Shown: piece after piece, positions 7,371 to 46,204 of the stretch
Numbering within the stretch: position 1 is the stretch's first letter
How the letters are laid out: each line of letters opens with the position of its first letter
NCBI GenBank assembly: GCA_004298545.1
Contig: SCQX01000185.1
Span: 1-51,821 of the forward strand
Direction: 5' to 3'
Source: Candidimonas sp.
GTDB taxonomy: Bacteria > Pseudomonadota > Gammaproteobacteria > Burkholderiales > Burkholderiaceae_B
DNA length: 51,821 bases
Position numbers and translations under genes: made by a program
The notes under the pieces: generated by a model
What the model was told of the DNA's origin: nothing
The model's input: the letters and a program-made list of their open reading frames with translations, nothing else
Databases searched by the model: none

Positions 7371-8068
7371 CGCCCGCAAGAAAATTGACCCTGTTCGACC
7401 TAGACCACACGTTGCTGCCGATCGACAGCGACTACCAATGGGCCGATTTCCTGGCCGGCACGGGGCGGGTGGGCGACCCCGACCAGGCGCGCCGCCGCAA
7501 TGCGGAACTCATGCGCCTGTACGAAGCCGGCAAACTCGCCGCCGAGCAGGCGACATCTTTCATGCTCGGCCTGCTGACTGGCGCAACGAGCGCCGAACTG
7601 GCGGAATGGCACGAGCACTACATGGCGGAAGTCGTGCGCCCCAACATCCATCCGGTTGCCCAGGAACTCGTACGTGGCCACCTCGAACGCGGCGACCTCT
7701 GCGCCATCGTCACCTCCACCAACGAATTCGTCACCGCGCCCATCGCCCGCGCGTTCGGCATCCACAACCTGATAGCCACCATCCCGCAATATTGCAACGG
7801 CCGTTATACCGGACGCGTCAGCGGCATCCCCAGCTTCCAGGCGGGCAAGGTCGTACGCGTGCGGTCGTGGCTGTCATCGCTGGGCCTCGACCTGAATGAT
7901 TTCGAAAGCTCCACTTTCTATAGCGATTCGGTCAACGACATGCCGCTGATGGAGGCGGTGACCGACCCGGTGGCGACCAACCCCGGGGACGCGCTGCGGC
8001 GAATCGCCACACGACGCGGTTGGAAGGTGCTCGATCTTTTTGACGATGCAAGCAGCGCGACGCCTTAA
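7367..8068 (+). CDS. HAD-IB family phosphatase (SerB-like)
   Basis: This 233-residue cytoplasmic HAD-superfamily hydrolase has all four motifs: FDLDHTLLP (nucleophile Asp), IVTSTNEF (motif II Thr/Ser), the motif III Lys in FQAGKVV, and SDSVNDMPL (motif IV acidic pair). The helical cap after motif I places it in subfamily IB with phosphoserine phosphatase-like proteins. The LPIDSDYQWADFL segment is typical of the proteobacterial group found between hda and pcnB. The substrate is unknown; a metabolite phosphatase role is a family-level inference. It is probably co-translated with hda. Confidence 0.85.
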   Translation: MTPARKLTLFDLDHTLLPIDSDYQWADFLAGTGRVGDPDQARRRNAELMRLYEAGKLAAEQATSFMLGLLTGATSAELAEWHEHYMAEVVRPNIHPVAQELVRGHLERGDLCAIVTSTNEFVTAPIARAFGIHNLIATIPQYCNGRYTGRVSGIPSFQAGKVVRVRSWLSSLGLDLNDFESSTFYSDSVNDMPLMEAVTDPVATNPGDALRRIATRRGWKVLDLFDDASSATP

Positions 8069-8078: not shown

Positions 8079-9443
8079 ATGTTCACGAAAACCATCAAGC
8101 ATTTCGTCGGTCGCCTGTTTTCGGCGCCGCCCAGCGGGCCGCGGCGTCTGGGCCGCGACAGCCACGGCATCGACCGGCGCAACGTCTCCCGGCATGCCAT
8201 CAAAGTATGCGAGGTCCTCCAGCAGCACGGATACGCGGCCTATATCGTGGGGGGCGCGGTGCGCGACCTGATCGCCGGGCTGCCGCCCAAGGATTTCGAC
8301 GTCGCCACCAGCGCCACGCCCGAACAGATACGGCCGCTGTTTCGGCGCGCCCGCATCATCGGCCGGCGCTTTCAGCTCGTGCATGTCGTGTTCGGTCAGG
8401 AAATCATTGAAACGTCCACGTTTCGCGCGCCAACGTCCGACACTCAGGAAACCGACGAACACGGGCGCATCCTGCGGGATAATCTGTTCGGCACGCACGA
8501 ACAGGACGCGGCGCGACGGGACTTCACACTGAACGCCCTCTACTACGACCCGATGACCGAAGAGGTGATCGATTTCCACCATGGCGTGGCCGACCTGAAG
8601 AACCGCGTCGTGCGCATCATCGGCGATGCCGAGACACGCTACCGCGAAGACCCGGTGCGCATGCTGCGCGCCGTGCGCTTCGAAACCAAACTCAGCGGCA
8701 CCATCGCGCCCTCCTCGCGCGAACCCATCAAACGCATGGCGGAGCTGATCGAATACATTCCCGCGTCGCGCCTGTTCGACGAGATGCTCAAACTGCTCAC
8801 TTGCGGGCATGCAATGGACTGCCTGCGGCACTTGCGCGAAGTGGGTCTGCACAAAGGCATGCTTCCCCTGATCGACGCCATCTTCGCGCAACCGGGTGGC
8901 GAGGCGTTCGTGGAACTCGCACTGGCCCGTACCGACGCCCGCATACGCGCTGGCAAGACGGTCAGCCCCAGTTTCCTGTTCGGTTCGCTGCTGTGGAAAC
9001 TGGTCGACCAGCGCTGGCGCGAAGGCACCAGCCGGGGCGAGTCGCGTATCCAGGCACTGATGAACGCCGCCGACTCGGTCATGGAGGAGCAGACGCGAAA
9101 ACTGGCCATCCAGCGGCGCTACCAGTCCGACATGCGGGAGATATGGTTCATGCAGCCGCGCTTCGAGCGCGCAACCGCCAAGACTGTTTGGCGCATGCTC
9201 GATCAACCGCGCTTTCGCGCGTCGGTCGACTTCCTGCAGCTGCGCGCGGAAGCGCGCGAAGTCGACAGCGTGCTGGCCCAGTGGTGGATGGATCTCGCTA
9301 ATGCCGATGATGCCACCCGGGCCGACATGATAGAAACCTATCAACAGCAGAACCGCGGCGCGTCCAACGGCACCCGTCGGCGGCGCCATCGCGGCCGCCG
9401 CCCGAAGACCGATGCGGCGGTACCGGACGCCGGCGGCGCATGA
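8079..9443 (+). CDS. pcnB: Poly(A) polymerase I
   Basis: PcnB (454 residues) adds poly(A) tails to RNA 3' ends and so promotes decay. The class II nucleotidyltransferase head is clear: YIVGGAVRDLIAG, then PKDFDVATSATPEQ with the metal-binding DxD. The PcnB-type signatures RRDFTLNALYYDP and REDPVRMLRAVRFETKL follow. The C-terminal tail (NGTRRRRHRGRRPK) is strongly basic, as expected for RNA binding and as in poly(A) polymerases rather than CCA-adding enzymes. The ATG at 8079 was preferred; a TTG 13 codons upstream overlaps the previous gene. It overlaps folK by 4 bp. Confidence 0.92.
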   Translation: MFTKTIKHFVGRLFSAPPSGPRRLGRDSHGIDRRNVSRHAIKVCEVLQQHGYAAYIVGGAVRDLIAGLPPKDFDVATSATPEQIRPLFRRARIIGRRFQLVHVVFGQEIIETSTFRAPTSDTQETDEHGRILRDNLFGTHEQDAARRDFTLNALYYDPMTEEVIDFHHGVADLKNRVVRIIGDAETRYREDPVRMLRAVRFETKLSGTIAPSSREPIKRMAELIEYIPASRLFDEMLKLLTCGHAMDCLRHLREVGLHKGMLPLIDAIFAQPGGEAFVELALARTDARIRAGKTVSPSFLFGSLLWKLVDQRWREGTSRGESRIQALMNAADSVMEEQTRKLAIQRRYQSDMREIWFMQPRFERATAKTVWRMLDQPRFRASVDFLQLRAEAREVDSVLAQWWMDLANADDATRADMIETYQQQNRGASNGTRRRRHRGRRPKTDAAVPDAGGA

Positions 9444-28658: not shown

Positions 28659-31313
28659 TCACCGCCTCGATATTCCGCTGCGGCTTGGCAAAAAGGGCAG
28701 CCAGCCGGCGCGCAACGTATCGGCGGCCAATCGGAAATAACCAAAGACACTCGCGCGCACCACGCCCAGCATGCTCGCCAGTATGTGTTCCGGGTCGTCC
28801 CGCGCGCCTTGATCGATCCAGGCGTCCGCTCGCCCGAACGTGCACCGGACCAGATCCCGCTCCTGCGCGAGCGTCAACGCTTCGAAGGCAACACCGACCT
28901 CATCACCCGCGATACGCGCAACGCGCGCGGGGAAATATTTTTCTCGATCGCCCAGCGCGAGCCCGACGCCAACGGGCATGCCGACGACCAGCGTCGCCGC
29001 ATCCGCCAAAGTCAGCCCTAACCCGCTCAGGGCGTAATCGAACGTCTCCGCGGCCACGACGCGGCCATCGACGAGTGCCAGCAGCGCGGGAATACGCGCG
29101 GGCGAACGATGCGAACCGCGCGCCTGGCGCGCCTCGCGCGCCACGGAAATTGCAACGCCCAGCATGATCAGGTTATAGGCCGTCCAGAATAAATTGATGA
29201 GCACGGTGGACGAATCGTTCACGTTCCACCAGAAATACCGCGCGAGACCGACCGCGAATGCAATCACGTTGACAGTCGCAAGCGCAATGTAAGGCAGTGA
29301 AATCTGCCAGTCGCGATAACCTTTCGCGATGTTCCGCCCCTTATTCGTCACATTGAATTTGCCATGGCGCGGGCTCAGGAACGCCAGTGTGGTCGGCAGC
29401 ACCACGTACCACGCCAGCACCGACTCGTACACTTCAGCCCAGAAAGAATGGCGGTAGCGCCCCTGAATGCGCGAACTGGCGATGTTGGCCAGCACCAGAT
29501 GCGGCAGCACGAACGACGCCAGGGCCAGCGCCGACGCATCCAGAAAGTAGAGCTGGAACAACAAGTACGCCGTTGGCATCAACAAGAAGACCAGGCGTGG
29601 GACACCATAGAAGAAGTGCAACATGGCGTTGCTGTAGCACAAGCGCTGCGCAAACGTCAGCCCCTTCCCGAGCAAGGGATTGTCCACACGGAAAATCTGC
29701 GCCATGCCGCGCGCCCAGCGTATGCGCTGACTGATGTGATCTGCCAACGTTTCGGTTGCCAGGCCGGCGGCCTGTACCGTGGACAGATAGGCTGAACGAT
29801 AGCCGAGCCGATGCAGCCTGAGTGACGTATGGGCGTCTTCCGTAACCGTCTCGGTTGCAATGCCGCCGATGCGTTCCAGCGGCGCACGCCGGATGACGGC
29901 GCAGGAGCCACAGAAAAAAGCGGCGTTCCACAAATCGTTGCCATCCTGCACCAACCCATAGAACAAGCTGCCTTCTTCAGGCACGCGCCCGCCCGTGCCA
30001 AGGTTGCGCTGAAACGGATCCGGTGAAAAGAAATAATGTGGCGTCTGTACCAGCGCGCAGCGATCGTCGGCCACCATCGCGCCCAGGGTAGCTTGCAGGA
30101 ACGAGCGCACGGGCACATGGTCACAGTCGAAAATGGCCACATAGTCGCCGCAGGTCTCGCGCAAGGCATGATTGATGTTCCCCGCCTTGGCGCCCTGGTT
30201 GTCGTCGCGCGTGACGTACCCGACCCCGGCCTGTGCGGCGAATGCCCGGAATTCTGGCCGTTTGCCGTCGTCGAGCACGTAGACTCTCAGACGATCCGCC
30301 GGCCAGTCCATGCTTTGCGCGGCATAGACGGCTGGTTTGACGACGGAAAGCGCCTCATTGTAGGTGGGAATGAAGACATCCACCGACGGCCACCGCGCAA
30401 CATCGGGCGGCAATCTGGCTGCGGGCCGCTCGAGCGGCCAGATCGTCTGCAGATAGCCCAGCAGCAGCACCAGCCAGGTGTAGCACTCCGCCAGATAAAG
30501 GGCATAGCCGACGAACGCCTCGGTCACCCCAGGAAACTCGAGCGTCTGGGTGGTGCGCCACCACACATAACGGGCGGATGCGCTCAGCGACAGGGACACC
30601 AGCACCAGCATGGCCAGGCGCCCCGGTATTTTGCGGATCAGCAACGCCAGGGCCAGCACCACCCCGAAAAATGCCATCTGCGGCCACGGCGGCAGCGGCG
30701 TCGTCACGGCAACGATCACCACGCCGACGCCCAGAAGAGCAAGTACGATGGCGATCGGCGCGAAGCGGCCGGACCACGTCACGCCCGCCTCGATGATTTG
30801 CGCGCCGTGTGCGCGGCGCGACGCCGGCATCAGCCAATTGAACGCGGCATGCAGCCCAGCGGACAGCCAGCGCAGTGGCCCGAACAGCGCGCGAACCCCG
30901 TTTGCGCCTGCCACCCCTATCGGCAGGGTCGATGGCGGACGTACGAAGAACCGCCACATCCACTCACGGCTCCGACGAATTTCGCGTACGCCGAGCCGGC
31001 GGGCAAGCGAGTGCACGGCCGCAACGATGGCGGTGCGCAACCGATCGGGCCGACCGCGCCGCGGCGCCTTCACAAACAGCCGCAACAGCCAATCGAACCA
31101 GAAGGCGTCGGGCGGAACGCCCAGATTGCCCGCACCGCGCGTCACGAGCGCGCGCAGGGTCATCCGCACCCAATCCGGCCGGCCCGGCATCGGCGCGCGT
31201 AAGAAAAGACGCAGCACCCAAATGGACAGTCCGGCGCCTGGCGCCACCCCCAGCGCCAAGGCAACACGCGGCTTGAAGCGAGCGCGTGGCCGAAGCGTCG
31301 CATAGCGCGCCAT
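28659..31313 (-). CDS. bcsA: Cellulose synthase catalytic subunit BcsA
   Basis: BcsA (884 residues; E. coli 872) is the processive inner-membrane GT2 synthase that polymerises UDP-glucose and threads the glucan through its own channel. The E. coli-like N-terminal extension (about 1-200) and membrane helices precede the catalytic domain: DVFIPTYNEAL (about 317), DDGKRPEF (about 348), FDCDHVP (about 394), TVTEDAHTS (about 491) and QRIRWARGM (about 530). The C-terminal PilZ domain has the c-di-GMP Arg motif RGSHR (about 734), but its DxSxxG motif reads DYALSG (about 758), with Ala for Ser. The start at 31313 lies 1 bp after the bcsQ stop. Confidence 0.95.
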   Translation of the reverse strand: MARYATLRPRARFKPRVALALGVAPGAGLSIWVLRLFLRAPMPGRPDWVRMTLRALVTRGAGNLGVPPDAFWFDWLLRLFVKAPRRGRPDRLRTAIVAAVHSLARRLGVREIRRSREWMWRFFVRPPSTLPIGVAGANGVRALFGPLRWLSAGLHAAFNWLMPASRRAHGAQIIEAGVTWSGRFAPIAIVLALLGVGVVIVAVTTPLPPWPQMAFFGVVLALALLIRKIPGRLAMLVLVSLSLSASARYVWWRTTQTLEFPGVTEAFVGYALYLAECYTWLVLLLGYLQTIWPLERPAARLPPDVARWPSVDVFIPTYNEALSVVKPAVYAAQSMDWPADRLRVYVLDDGKRPEFRAFAAQAGVGYVTRDDNQGAKAGNINHALRETCGDYVAIFDCDHVPVRSFLQATLGAMVADDRCALVQTPHYFFSPDPFQRNLGTGGRVPEEGSLFYGLVQDGNDLWNAAFFCGSCAVIRRAPLERIGGIATETVTEDAHTSLRLHRLGYRSAYLSTVQAAGLATETLADHISQRIRWARGMAQIFRVDNPLLGKGLTFAQRLCYSNAMLHFFYGVPRLVFLLMPTAYLLFQLYFLDASALALASFVLPHLVLANIASSRIQGRYRHSFWAEVYESVLAWYVVLPTTLAFLSPRHGKFNVTNKGRNIAKGYRDWQISLPYIALATVNVIAFAVGLARYFWWNVNDSSTVLINLFWTAYNLIMLGVAISVAREARQARGSHRSPARIPALLALVDGRVVAAETFDYALSGLGLTLADAATLVVGMPVGVGLALGDREKYFPARVARIAGDEVGVAFEALTLAQERDLVRCTFGRADAWIDQGARDDPEHILASMLGVVRASVFGYFRLAADTLRAGWLPFLPSRSGISRR

Positions 31314-31314
31314 A

Positions 31315-32070
31315 TCAGACTCCCGGCGCCACCGGCGCGCACAGCCAATCAGCCAGTTCCCGCAGGTCGTGCGCGGCCTGCGATCGCGGGCAGGCATCGA
31401 AACAGTACTGCCCCTTGGCGTACGACTCGGGGATGCTCGCGTCCTCATGCACCCGCGGCGTCATCACCCGCTCGCGCCCCAAGCGTGCCCGCAACAGCGC
31501 CAGCACGTCGTAATGCAGCGGACGAGCGGGATGGACGCCATTGGCCAAAATGCGAAACGCACGGTTTGCGCACCGCTGCGCGTCGGCAAACCGCAGCAAT
31601 GCCGCGCACGCCACAGGCTCGGGGCGCGTCACACAAATCACCTCGTGCGCGCTGCGCATCGCCAGCGCCGCCAGCGTGCCGGGGAAGCGCGCGGCATCGA
31701 GCAGCACCATGCCATGGTCCGGCAAATCGATTTGCGCAATATGCGCACTCAGCCAGCCCGGGTCGGCTGCCAGCCGACCTTCCAGATCGAGAAGCCGATC
31801 CGCATCCAGATCACCAAAGGGAACGAAGAGTACGCCATCGGCGCTGCGATACGTGGCGCCGCGCCACGGGCTCCCCCCGTCGAGCGCGCGTGACGCGAGG
31901 CCGGTGGCTGGTGCTCGCGCAAGGCCCAAAAAAGTGCCCAGTACATTCTGGGGATCCAGCTCGACGACGACCACGGGCTGTGCCGCGCGAGCCAGAAGCA
32001 CCGCCAGCGCGGACACCAGGGACGTCTTGCCAACGCCGCCACACACCGACACGAAGGCAACGATCTTCAC
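31315..32070 (-). CDS. bcsQ: BcsQ, ParA/MinD-like ATPase of the cellulose complex
   Basis: BcsQ (251 residues) is a MinD-family ATPase that sits at the cytoplasmic vestibule of the synthase and is required for type II cellulose secretion. The P-loop is VCGGVGKTS (K15): the invariant P-loop Lys is kept, but the family's signature Lys (KGGVGKT) is Cys, comparable to Arg at that place in E. coli BcsQ. VVVVELDPQN is the switch region and LLDAARF the Walker B area. It starts with GTG overlapping the bcsF stop (GTGA). Confidence 0.88.
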   Translation of the reverse strand: MKIVAFVSVCGGVGKTSLVSALAVLLARAAQPVVVVELDPQNVLGTFLGLARAPATGLASRALDGGSPWRGATYRSADGVLFVPFGDLDADRLLDLEGRLAADPGWLSAHIAQIDLPDHGMVLLDAARFPGTLAALAMRSAHEVICVTRPEPVACAALLRFADAQRCANRAFRILANGVHPARPLHYDVLALLRARLGRERVMTPRVHEDASIPESYAKGQYCFDACPRSQAAHDLRELADWLCAPVAPGV

Positions 32071-42989: not shown

Positions 42990-43718
42990 ATGCAACCCTC
43001 TATATTCTCGATCACGGGTTTCGCCAGGCCCGGCACGAGTCCTGGCCACTCACTCGACCGCCACCGGCAAAGCCGCTGTCCCAATACCGGCGCGGGCCGC
43101 ATCCACCGCTACCGGCTGTTCGCCCTTTCGGTGGCGCTTGCGCTGGCAACCACTCGAGCCGTCAGCGCCGCTCCACCCGCGAAAGCCTCGAATGCCAGCG
43201 TCGAATACGCGACGCAACTCACACCGATCTACAGCGACGCATCGCTGTCACAACAAATCGGAACGCTCTCCCCCAGCAGTGAACTGCATCTTCAGGCCGA
43301 TATCACCCCATCGGCGGCCGAACCGTTCTCCATCGACGGCTGGTTTCAGCAGGGAAACGAGCAATCGCTCTTCCTCGACAAGGGTAAACGCATCGTCGTC
43401 GCGGCACTGTCACGCCCGCCCAAAGGCTATGAAAAGCTGGGTGAGGCGAAGGACGACTACGACAACGTCTGGGTACACGCGCGCCTCAACGCCTACGTGA
43501 ATCCGCAATCGCTGACGGGCGACCAGGCAACCGTGTGGCAACACGCCGCGACCCTGTATCAGGCACGGTGCAGCGCCTGCCACGCCGTGCATAAACCGGC
43601 GGAATTCACGGCGAACCAATGGCCGGGCATTCTCAGCATCATGGCCAGGAACGCCGCGCTGAGACCCGACGAACTGGCGTTGATCACCGAATATCTCCAG
43701 ACGCATGCCAAACCCTGA
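42990..43718 (+). CDS. Periplasmic monohaem cytochrome c, TorC C-terminal-domain type
   Basis: This 242-residue protein has a hydrophobic signal-like core only at about residues 53-70 (RLFALSVALALATTRAVSA), after an unusually long polar N-terminus. A beta-rich domain follows (LTPIYSDASLSQQIGTLSPS to VNPQSLTGDQ), then one haem site C194-S-A-C197-H198 within ATLYQARCSACHAVHKPAEF. TANQWPGILSIMARNAAL is the hallmark of the C-terminal haem domain of TorC/TorY, the electron donor of TorA. The tetrahaem NapC-like part of TorC is missing. AAGGAA is 10 nt before the ATG. The next gene starts 11 bp after its stop, so the two probably form one operon. Confidence 0.8.
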   Translation: MQPSIFSITGFARPGTSPGHSLDRHRQSRCPNTGAGRIHRYRLFALSVALALATTRAVSAAPPAKASNASVEYATQLTPIYSDASLSQQIGTLSPSSELHLQADITPSAAEPFSIDGWFQQGNEQSLFLDKGKRIVVAALSRPPKGYEKLGEAKDDYDNVWVHARLNAYVNPQSLTGDQATVWQHAATLYQARCSACHAVHKPAEFTANQWPGILSIMARNAALRPDELALITEYLQTHAKP

Positions 43719-43729
43719 GGAGCACAACC

Positions 43730-46204
43730 ATGGAACCCCACTCTGTTTCAATGCAATCCGCATCCACGTCAGCCAACCGTACCGGCGACGGTTCAACCAA
43801 CATCTCGCGCCGCCGCTTCATGGAAGCAGCCGGCGTTGCCGCCGGCGCACTCGCGGTACCCACCGTGGCTTTCGGCGAAGGCGGTGAAAAAACCATTTTG
43901 ACCGCCACGCACTGGGGCATGGTGCGCGCGGTCGTCCAGTCCGGACGGCTGCTGCGCGTCGAGCCCTTTGAAAAAGACCCTCATCCCACGAAAATGCTGA
44001 CGGCGTTTCACAGCCGGGTTTATTCACCCACGCGCATCGCGCATCCCGCGGTGCGCAAAGGCTTCCTCGACAAGTCCACACGCGGCGATACCGCGCGCCG
44101 AGGCGCCGACGCGTTCGTTCGGGTCAGCTGGAACGAGGCGCTGGATCTCGTCGCCGACGAACTGCGTCGCGTCAAGCGGCAATATGGCAACGGCGCATTC
44201 TTTCCGGGATCGGCGGACTGGCAGTCGGCCGGAATCCTGCACAGCGCGTCGGCCCTGACGCGGCGGCTCCTGGCCCTGCATGGCGGCTTCACCGACTGCT
44301 CGGGCGACCCCAGCATCGCCGCGGCGATGGTGATCGTGCCCCACGTGCTGGGCGATCTCGAAGTCTACGGCCAACAGACCGCGTGGCCCAGTATTCTGGC
44401 CAACGCCAGGAACGTGGTGTTCTGGGGCTGCTGCCCGATCAAAAACAACCAGATCGGCACGCATCCATCGGACCACACCGCCTACGGCGCATTGGCGGCG
44501 TTGCGCGAGAAGTCCGCGCGCAAGGAGATAAACGTCATTTCGATCGATCCGCGCGTGACCGATACCGCCGCGTATACCCACGCCCGGTGGATTTCTCCGC
44601 GCCCGAACACCGACACGGCGCTGATGCTCGCGCTGATGTACGTTCTGTATACGGAGAAGCTGCACGACGCCGACTTCCTGTCCAAATACTGTTTCGGGTT
44701 CGATCGGTTCCTGCCGTATCTGCTGGGTGAAAACGGCGGCGTGCCCAAAACGCCGGCATGGGCATCCGCAATCACCGGCGTTCCGGCCGCGGAAATCGAG
44801 CGCCTGGCCCGCACGCTTGCCGCGGGCCGCACGATACTGATCACCGGCTACGCCATCCAGCGCGCCGATCACGGCGAACAGCCATACTGGGCCCTGATCA
44901 CGCTGGCCGCGATGCTGGGCCAGATCGGTCTGCCCGGCGGCGGCCTGGGTTTCAGCTATCACTACGACAATGGGGGCTCCCTCACCTCGAAGGGACCCGG
45001 CGTCGCGGGTATCTCCGCTGGCGAGAACCCTGTCCAGACGGTGCTGCCATTCGAACGCGTGACCAGCATGCTGCTCAATCCAGGCCAGACATTCAACTAC
45101 AACGGCCAGCGCATGGCGTACCCCGATGTCAAAATGATTTACTGGGCGGGTGGCAACCCGATGACGCACCTCTGGCAGACCGCCAAGGTGATCGAGGCCT
45201 GGCGGCGGCCGGAAACCATTGTCGTGGCGGATCCGTTCTGGACGCCAACTGCGCGTTTCGCCGACATCGTCCTTCCCGCAACGACGACCTTCGAGCGCAA
45301 TGATCTGGAAGTCTGCGGCGCCTACTCGCAAAAGTTTCTGGTCGGCATGCACCAGGCGATCGAACCGGTCGGCGAAGCCCGCAATGATTACGACATCATG
45401 CGCGAGCTGGCCAAGCGTCTGGGGTTTGAAGACAAGTTCACAGAAAACAAGTCGGAGATGGACTGGCTGCGCACATTCTACGAACAGGCCAGGCACACCG
45501 TCGAAGCAATGAACAAAATAAGCATCCCCGATTTCGATAAATTCTGGAACGGCGGCGGCTACGTGGAGTTCCCCATCCCGGATGACGCGAAAAACTACGT
45601 CACCCACGAGGCGTTCCGCAAGAACCCGCAACAGAACCCACTGGGCACCCCGTCGGGGAAGATCGAAATCTACTCGACACCGATTGCCGCCTTCCACTAC
45701 GACGACTGTCCGCCGCACGCAACCTGGATCGAACCCGCCGAGTGGCTCGGCGCTCCTCAGGCAAAGAAATTCCCCATTCACATCGTATCGCCGCATCCAC
45801 AGTTTCGCCTGCACTCGCAGCTCGACAACACGATCCTGCGCAAAGCCTATGAAGTGCGCGACCGCGAACCCATCTGGATCAGCGTCGCCGATGCGAAACG
45901 ACGCGGTATCGCCAAGGGCGACATCGTGCGGGTGTTCAACGATCGCGGCAGCGTGCTGGCCGGGGCGGTGGTCACCGACCGCATCATGACAGGCGTCGCC
46001 ATGCTGCAGGAGGGCGCCTGGTATGATCCGGATCAGCCCGGAAACCCGCAGGCCCTGTGCAAGCACGGGCTCATCAATGTGCTGACGCTGGACAAGGGGA
46101 CGTCCAACCTGGCGCAAGGGAATATTGCGAACACGTGCCTCGTGGAGATCGAGAAATACGACCGACCCGTGCCCGCAATCACGGTGTTCACCGCGCCGGT
46201 TTGA
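43730..46204 (+). CDS. TorA/DMSO-reductase-family periplasmic molybdoenzyme
   Basis: This 824-residue bis-MGD molybdoenzyme probably reduces an S- or N-oxide (TMAO, DMSO, methionine or biotin sulfoxide). The Tat signal ISRRRFMEAAGVAAGALAVP lies at about residues 25-45. No N-terminal Cys cluster is present, so it lacks the [4Fe-4S] centre, as in TorA, TorZ and BisC. The molybdenum ligand is likely S195 in SGDPSIAAAMVIVPHVLGDL, where TorA/DorA have DYSTGA. GDLEVYGQQTAWP, KNNQIGTHPSDH, WAGGNPMTHLWQ and QFRLHSQLDN follow the family order. GAGGAG overlapping the cytochrome stop gives the start. No TorD chaperone is in the window; the exact substrate is open. Confidence 0.88.
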   Translation: MEPHSVSMQSASTSANRTGDGSTNISRRRFMEAAGVAAGALAVPTVAFGEGGEKTILTATHWGMVRAVVQSGRLLRVEPFEKDPHPTKMLTAFHSRVYSPTRIAHPAVRKGFLDKSTRGDTARRGADAFVRVSWNEALDLVADELRRVKRQYGNGAFFPGSADWQSAGILHSASALTRRLLALHGGFTDCSGDPSIAAAMVIVPHVLGDLEVYGQQTAWPSILANARNVVFWGCCPIKNNQIGTHPSDHTAYGALAALREKSARKEINVISIDPRVTDTAAYTHARWISPRPNTDTALMLALMYVLYTEKLHDADFLSKYCFGFDRFLPYLLGENGGVPKTPAWASAITGVPAAEIERLARTLAAGRTILITGYAIQRADHGEQPYWALITLAAMLGQIGLPGGGLGFSYHYDNGGSLTSKGPGVAGISAGENPVQTVLPFERVTSMLLNPGQTFNYNGQRMAYPDVKMIYWAGGNPMTHLWQTAKVIEAWRRPETIVVADPFWTPTARFADIVLPATTTFERNDLEVCGAYSQKFLVGMHQAIEPVGEARNDYDIMRELAKRLGFEDKFTENKSEMDWLRTFYEQARHTVEAMNKISIPDFDKFWNGGGYVEFPIPDDAKNYVTHEAFRKNPQQNPLGTPSGKIEIYSTPIAAFHYDDCPPHATWIEPAEWLGAPQAKKFPIHIVSPHPQFRLHSQLDNTILRKAYEVRDREPIWISVADAKRRGIAKGDIVRVFNDRGSVLAGAVVTDRIMTGVAMLQEGAWYDPDQPGNPQALCKHGLINVLTLDKGTSNLAQGNIANTCLVEIEKYDRPVPAITVFTAPV

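Follow-up and report, generated by a model that had tools for sequence, protein, structure and literature searches.

A monohaem TorC-type cytochrome paired with a TorA-family oxide reductase in Candidimonas: a candidate NapC-free electron route

How could a periplasmic oxide reductase of the TorA family receive electrons when its cytochrome partner corresponds only to the last haem domain of TorC? This question is raised by a gene pair at positions 42,990 to 46,204 of a 51,821-nucleotide stretch of DNA, hereafter the window, from contig SCQX01000185.1 of the Candidimonas sp. assembly GCA_004298545.1 (genome G000; 3.19 Mb, 339 contigs, 96.9% complete). A first-pass annotation had described an orphan C-terminal haem domain of TorC (hereafter TorC-C), with its own export signal, ahead of an enzyme exported by the twin-arginine translocation (Tat) pathway, and had suggested repair of methionine sulfoxide (MetO) rather than respiration. 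We favour, with clear reservations, a TorB-TorA type of periplasmic oxide reductase that works without NapC, in which an N-oxide would be reduced via a monohaem cytochrome fed at the level of cytochrome c.

The window encodes a single TorC-type haem domain ahead of a TorA-family enzyme

The features of the pair are as follows, with open reading frame abbreviated as ORF and bis(molybdopterin guanine dinucleotide) as bis-MGD.

42990..43718, + strand: monohaem c-type cytochrome of 242 aa, TorB-like and corresponding to the C-terminal domain of TorC (own export signal by eye; partial TIGR02162 match, one CxxCH)
43191..43520, + strand: beta domain with an SH3-like fold in the cytochrome (about residues 68-177), a proposed docking part (AlphaFold2 strands, VIA matches)
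43524..43715, + strand: haem c domain with CSACH (C194-H198), Met218 being the likely distal ligand (Pfam DHC, VIA match to 3u99)
43730..46204, + strand: TorA-family bis-MGD S/N-oxide reductase of 824 aa (twin-arginine signal by eye; TIGR00509, NF011682 and Pfam PF00384, PF01568 and PF18364)
44207..44233, + strand: active-site motif GSADWQSAG, with Ala162, Asp163 and W164 (alignment to 1eu1 and 41 relatives)
44303..44320, + strand: GDPSIA, with Pro194 and the presumed molybdenum ligand S195 (same alignment)

The cytochrome ORF starts with an ATG at 42990, is coding to 43715 and stops at 43716-43718; 11 bp separate it from the TorA ORF, which runs from an ATG at 43730 to 46204 on the same strand. 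The cytochrome aligns only to positions 199-380 of the 387-position model TIGR02162 (torC), with 97.9 bits and E 7.5e-28, the cut-off for whole TorC being 478.2 bits, and corresponds to the hinge plus haem-5 domain of TorC. With one CxxCH and no PF03264 (NapC/NirT) match, it does not qualify as a pentahaem TorC. This CxxCH is the only one in the window's open frames of at least 60 aa on both strands, and no haem motif occurs in the open frame ahead of the ATG, which rules out a frame running upstream into a tetrahaem domain. Both export signals were recognised by eye, with no predictor run: a hydrophobic signal ending VSA-A at about residue 60 of the cytochrome, and a twin-arginine SRRRFM in the N-terminus of TorA, where the Pfam TAT_signal model gave no match. 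The Pfam DHC family matched the C-terminal end of the cytochrome at 25.5 bits (cut-off 22.2).

The TorA ORF passes the S/N-oxide reductase subfamily model TIGR00509 over residues 59-823 (1054.5 vs 1017.55 bits). Among TorA equivalog models, it scored 928.1 with NF011682 (cut-off 909) and 889.4 with TIGR02164 (torA; cut-off 1465).

No NapC, TorD, two-component or molybdenum-cofactor gene was found among the nine flanking ORFs scanned, and PF03264 had 0 matches in the genome, the E. coli control being positive. The single TorD/NarJ-family match (PF02613) of the genome sits between NarH-like and NarI-like ORFs (by eye); as it is NarJ-like and lies within a nar cluster, a dedicated TorD is ruled out. 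The locus therefore has two of the marks of a TorB-TorA system, a stand-alone monohaem TorC-C homologue adjoining a TorA-family gene and a genome with no NapC/TorC-family match. The gene structure described by the first-pass annotation, including the spacing, both signals and the lack of Tor accessory genes nearby, is thus borne out.

The pair recurs in a lineage without NapC-family matches

The search for this two-gene pair that had been proposed found it in L003 and L004 (two metagenome-assembled genomes), L064 (G061, one contig) and L065 (G128), hence far above chance. The window TorA shares 82% identity with its counterpart in L064 and 60-61% with those in L003 and L004. PF03264 was absent from all five lineage genomes (G000, G061, G128, G568 with L003 and G569 with L004), the completeness of G568 and G569 not being given. 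Judged by gene content, this absence argues against feeding by NapC within the lineage of the window.

A NapC gene elsewhere in the genome had been named as a finding that would overturn the orphan-cytochrome reading. The reading stands on this point in the lineage (0/5 genomes) and fails as a simple rule outside it: stand-alone TorC-C forms of other lineages co-occur with a NapC-family gene in 4/4 genomes, at 108-116 bits in G747, G586 and G711 (with one internal stop in G747) and at 250 bits in G1268.

The haem domain is combined with different electron-entry parts

A family search of 200 genomes, with figures given by open frame, yielded among the 30 matches listed three stand-alone proteins (251-344 aa), 15 of 391-431 aa (E <1e-21), one of 541 aa, ten of 894-978 aa and a weak one of 414 aa. 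We assigned architectures from the fetched loci by counting haem motifs; most weak haem-only matches were left outside this survey, and it also excludes L114 and L082, whose two-haem DHC-like proteins come without a TorA match in the stretch. A pentahaem TorC adjoins TorA in L032, L067, L068, L069, L079, L081, L115-L117, L120-L123 and L125. At six loci (L008, L102-L105 and L124), TorC-C is fused to a cytochrome with two haems and, by eye, a membrane segment at its N-terminus; these fusions adjoin TorA or lie within ~0.6 kb of it. TorC-C carries a C-terminal class I cytochrome in L066. Stand-alone TorC-C is found in the window, L003, L004, L064 and L065 and, separately, in L106, L107 and L109; only a 246-aa part of TorA matched in L108. 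Finally, TorA itself bears a C-terminal haem domain at 14 intact loci (L070-L078, L080, L110, L111, L118 and L119), L112 and L113 being further such fusions with split genes. The TorA-haem fusion enzymes (885-1009 aa by open frame) form a separate clade.

In L064 and L004, a class I cytochrome c gene immediately precedes the pair. Pfam (PF00034 and PF13442) confirmed class I domains in these neighbours and in L066, L124 and L008; within the dihaem kind the check covers L008 and L124, not L102-L105. Since the haem domain comes with a dihaem cytochrome, with a class I cytochrome or fused to TorA, it appears as the constant part and the electron entry as the part that is swapped; as a pattern among sequences, this fits TorC-C behaving as a swappable electron-entry module. 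The class I genes upstream in L064 and L004 and the fusion in L066 point to a donor at the cytochrome c level, in line with the earlier proposal that electrons arrive by another route than NapC. Among the matches listed in a search of open-licence PubMed Central (PMC) literature, no title named the dihaem-TorC-C or TorA-haem fusions, which is weak evidence of absence; nor did a limited literature search meet with the three stand-alone lineages or with TorC-C accompanied by, or fused to, class I cytochromes.

Several observations concern single loci. In L004, the upstream class I cytochrome gene (7553-7951) has a near-copy at 8696-9070, between TorC-C and TorA, that reads CAARH instead of CAACH, so that normal haem binding has probably been lost. 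L124 (2347-3933) is on the Cereibacter azotoformans plasmid NZ_CP090024.1, where the dihaem-TorC-C protein is annotated only as 'c-type cytochrome'. Genome G148 (580 contigs, 81% complete) has both a pentahaem TorC (L032) and a dihaem-TorC-C fusion (L008), each near a TorA start; contamination of the assembly may account for this double set.

We then compared the architectures in two trees, which omit L008, L032, L108, L112 and L113 (cut, truncated or split genes). The TorA tree has 42 rows and was built by a quick method with support from the Shimodaira-Hasegawa approximate likelihood ratio test only; the branches starred in it are marked here as such. The TorC-C tree has 27 domains, leaves out the 14 fused rows and was built by a careful method with 200 bootstrap trees. 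In the TorA tree, the stand-alone kind needs three changes, and the starred branches force three; three changes were again found in the TorC-C tree (5-95% range 3-3). The 14 fused rows form one group (100, starred), as do the five dihaem rows (100, starred). The window, L064, L065, L003 and L004 group together (99, starred), with L066 as sister (96, starred). The stand-alone L109 (5559-6206, G1268) stands beside a pentahaem relative in both trees; its partner in the TorC-C tree, L079, is of the same family. From its placement, L109 is likely to have lost the NapC half of TorC, a NapC-family gene being present elsewhere in G1268. As the root was not inferred, gain and loss of the NapC part are not separable in general.

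NapC-family content varied among the other architectures. PF03264 was absent from 13 of 17 genomes with TorA-haem fusions (the genes are split in two of the 17, and one was judged by its open frame alone), namely 8/11 of a first set (G092 by open frame only) and 5/6 further genomes (G884, G856, G828, G704 and G1107; present in G1008). For the dihaem kind, it was absent in 3/4 genomes (G854, G704 and G884) and present in G720; it was also absent from the Cereibacter plasmid, whose chromosome was not searched, and present in G148.

The cytochrome model combines an SH3-like domain with a haem domain

An AlphaFold2 model of cytochrome residues 68-242, built with 23 alignment rows, had a mean predicted local distance difference test score (pLDDT) of 94.6 and a predicted template modelling score of 0.87; an earlier one, built from 6 sequences, was of poor quality, with a mean pLDDT of 63.6, and was not used. 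The model has a beta domain (model residues 1-110) and a three-helix haem domain (112-175). With the VIA aligner, the beta domain paired with chains that we read as SH3b/SH3 (Z 4.6-8.8), the best match covering 60 residues at a root-mean-square deviation (rmsd) of 1.4 with a middling Z of 8.8; the SH3 label should accordingly be read as a modelled fold resemblance. For the haem domain, the matches were the Shewanella dihaem cytochrome 3u99 (58 residues at an rmsd of 2.1 and 33% identity, Z 7.8) and cytochrome cz 3a9f (Z 7.1). Plain Foldseek returned nothing for the model at E 0.001 or better.

Among the 41 haem domains compared, window included, Met218 is present in 39 and His239 in 24 (counted by eye). 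His239 was rejected as a universal distal haem ligand, since it is Asn in 14/14 fusions and 3/13 pentahaem rows; Met218 fits better and is the likely distal ligand. The 14 intact TorA-haem fusions have 43-58 residues between the end of the TorA match and CxxCH, so there is no room for the SH3-like part. This part may therefore hold the free cytochrome on the enzyme and be dispensable once the haem is tethered.

The active site suggests an N-oxide substrate

The closest solved structure to the window TorA is the DMSO (dimethyl sulfoxide) reductase 1eu1 (DorA; E 1.2e-256). We take its Tyr114, Trp116 and Ser147 positions to line the active site, and Ser147 to be the molybdenum ligand. In the numbering of 1eu1, Tyr114 corresponds to Ala162, Gly115 to Asp163 and Tyr146 to Pro194, and Trp116 (W164) and Ser147 (S195) are kept. 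When the window and 41 relatives were aligned, G(S/T)ADW together with GDPS was common to the five lineage members, all of which have Ala for Tyr114, and the remaining 37 rows all lack it; the sister L066 reads GSTDW/GDFS.

The signature of enzymes competent for S-oxides, Tyr114 with Trp116 as in DorA, TorZ, MtsZ and BisC, is therefore incomplete here, Ala162 standing beside the retained Trp164. According to PMC5122715, true N-oxide reductases do not have Tyr114 and cannot reduce S-oxides, and S-oxide reductases all keep it. By this rule, an N-oxide is the likelier predicted substrate, and the MetO repair suggested by the first-pass annotation loses ground. The Asp and Pro changes make an unusual substrate possible.

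Electron route and alternative explanations

We propose that a Tat-exported TorA-type molybdoenzyme would reduce a small N-oxide resembling trimethylamine N-oxide (TMAO) at a bis-MGD molybdenum held by Ser195, with the monohaem cytochrome docking through its SH3-like domain and handing over electrons singly. The cytochrome itself would be reduced by a c-type cytochrome, either that of the bc1 complex or a soluble protein of class I, rather than by a tetrahaem quinol dehydrogenase. PMC6195509 describes such a case: Campylobacter jejuni, without TorC, requires QcrABC for TMAO reduction, which a qcrABC mutant fails to carry out with physiological donors. The proposed carrier is TorB (Cj0265), a homologue of the TorC C-terminal domain. 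By analogy with the C. jejuni and C. concisus precedents, the window pair most likely works like the C. jejuni pair.

For the bc1 complex, the genes of the lineage give a mixed picture. Cytochrome c1 was matched in 4/5 lineage genomes. In G000 the match is on contig C284, where by eye it follows a cytochrome b gene, with sspA-like and sspB-like genes coming next. At about 2240-2445 of L127 (G000:C284:15500-21649), petB and petC are present and the Rieske gene is missing from its spot, which may reflect an assembly gap, a move or a loss. In the relative G061, a Rieske gene (L128 6808-7455) lies between mscL and petB, and Rieske, cytochrome b and c1 genes stand together (by eye).

A number of observations weigh against the proposed route. 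PF03264 is present in just 34 of the 200 family genomes; with this low background, a specific association of NapC absence with the stand-alone pair is ruled out. The Rieske gene is not in the ~200 bp between mscL and petB of G000 (it was not searched elsewhere), so that a working bc1 complex is not established in the window genome, and G568 (L003) gave no cytochrome c1 match. No MenD above the cut-off was found in any of the five lineage genomes, where the futalosine route was not searched and weak MenD matches probably come from related enzymes; the sister genome G283 (L066, class I fusion) has MenD above the cut-off and four PF03264 matches. Ubiquinol was judged too high in potential for TMAO reduction through Qcr against the proton-motive force in PMC6195509, and by that account a route from ubiquinol, without menaquinol, is energetically unfavourable. 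No class I cytochrome gene lies beside the pair in the window, and none was seen for L065 and L003. Lastly, Gon et al., as cited in PMC11727998, saw strong binding to TorA only with TorC and with its N-terminal part, and these binding data do not favour docking by the C-terminal half.

Several of these points would be met if the donor were not the bc1 complex at all and periplasmic dehydrogenases reducing class I cytochromes, or another quinol oxidase, fed the monohaem cytochrome, in what would be a valve for redox balance and not an energy-conserving chain. We hold this to be unlikely, though far from negligible: the class I neighbours and fusions show entry at the cytochrome level without naming bc1, and neither c1 in G568 nor a Rieske gene beside petB in G000 was found, but c1 occurs in the other four lineage genomes, the three bc1 genes stand together in G061, and the precedent described for C. 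jejuni in PMC6195509 depends on Qcr. The dihaem module, which presumably resembles the cytochrome subunits of dehydrogenases, counts for this donor as well. The energetic problem would be eased by a repair role, which needs little flux, with the enzyme acting as an S-oxide or MetO reductase and the monohaem carrier drawing a trickle of electrons from cytochrome c. C. concisus BisA/BisB, identical in its two-gene layout, respires N- and S-oxides and was concluded to repair MetO (PMC10653797), and periplasmic DorA was reported to reduce protein-bound MetO (PMC7402097); the replacement of Tyr114 by Ala in the whole lineage, a residue that S-oxide reductases all keep according to PMC5122715, and a scan of nine flanking ORFs in which no repair genes were recognised make this distinctly improbable.

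A further question is whether the substrate falls outside TMAO, DMSO and MetO and is set by the clade-specific pocket Ala162-Asp163-Trp164 and Pro194-Ser195. The confinement of GSADW/GTADW with GDPS to the lineage, and the different GSTDW/GDFS of L066, speak for it, but scores of 1054.5 bits to the S/N-oxide reductase subfamily and 928.1 bits to a TorA model speak against it, and we regard such a substrate as rather unlikely. That the pair is a decaying remnant of a TorC-TorA operon is very hard to sustain: truncation probably happens, as L109 beside its pentahaem relative suggests, and the search for a TorD to go with the window form found none, but neither ORF is broken, the haem motif survives, all five lineage members retain the arrangement, and TorA is conserved at the identities given above.

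Returning to the cytochrome c-fed route, the observations could be joined, tentatively and with more doubt than the route itself, into a wider picture. A ubiquinone-only bacterium would reduce N-oxides from the high-potential cytochrome c pool, and TorC-C would be a portable docking-plus-haem adaptor with four electron entries (tetrahaem NapC, anchored dihaem cytochrome, class I cytochrome or none), the haem part alone also being fused onto TorA. The stand-alone form would have arisen at least three times, and the window lineage would have its own substrate pocket. The Campylobacter rule of NapC-free, cytochrome c-fed TMAO reduction would then extend to bacteria with c1-type bc1 genes, including the one-contig G061. 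A lineage that has the pair, no MenD above the cut-off and no NapC makes the energetic limit on ubiquinol, as stated in PMC6195509, testable. The series of modules offers a natural dissection of TorC into a docking part and a last-electron carrier.

Genomic surroundings

Among the nine flanking ORFs, those upstream form a cellulose synthase cluster (BcsB, GH8, BcsC and BcsE); those downstream encode an alpha/beta hydrolase and an M20 peptidase, together with an oligopeptide-type ABC transporter. No Rfam family reached its gathering score anywhere in the window. With a palindrome that we take to be the FNR/ANR consensus, a scan of the whole window at up to two mismatches gave 17 matches against 8.07 expected, and 0/100 shuffles scored as high; the excess may reflect the composition of coding sequence. 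Two of the FNR/ANR-like sites (42059 and 42449), with two mismatches each, lie upstream of the pair at a distance of 0.5-0.9 kb. ARAGORN called a transfer RNA (tRNA)-Thr (CGT) at 31097-31182 on the minus strand, within the long minus-strand ORF 28659-31448; probably either the call is false or the ORF is over-long and overlaps it.

Comparison with known systems

The first-pass annotation took the layout for a stripped-down reductase system. As an unusual design it has precedents, both respiratory, in PMC6195509 (C. jejuni TorA/TorB) and PMC10653797 (C. concisus BisA/BisB). The C. jejuni TorB (Cj0265)/TorA (Cj0264) pair likewise has a small soluble monohaem TorC-C homologue beside TorA and no NapC/TorC (PMC6195509); a donor at the cytochrome c level is suggested for both. 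C. jejuni uses menaquinol and Qcr with a dihaem cytochrome c, whereas the window genome has a c1-type protein and no MenD above the cut-off. BisA/BisB also unites a catalytic subunit with a monohaem cytochrome, BisB being a protein of 189 aa with a Sec signal. BisA acts on N- and S-oxides and on MetO (PMC10653797); the window enzyme has no Tyr114 equivalent.

The resemblance to E. coli TorC/TorA/TorD lies in the TorA-family enzyme, E. coli TorA also being without Tyr114 (a gap in L122); unlike that system, the window has no tetrahaem NapC part, TorD or TorRST/TorT neighbours. E. coli TorY/TorZ and Haemophilus influenzae MtsY/MtsZ belong to the same enzyme group (TorZ as aligned, MtsZ by PMC5122715). 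They have a pentahaem partner, and E. coli TorZ keeps the Tyr (GSYGW, L123). Rhodobacter DorA (1eu1, 1dmr) is the closest solved structure and shares Ser147 and Trp116 with the window TorA, in which Tyr114 and Tyr146 are replaced; its partner DorC is pentahaem according to PMC11727998. The two-gene design is thus already known from Campylobacter, and what is new here is its occurrence in another bacterial group, with a substrate pocket of its own and probably another quinone.

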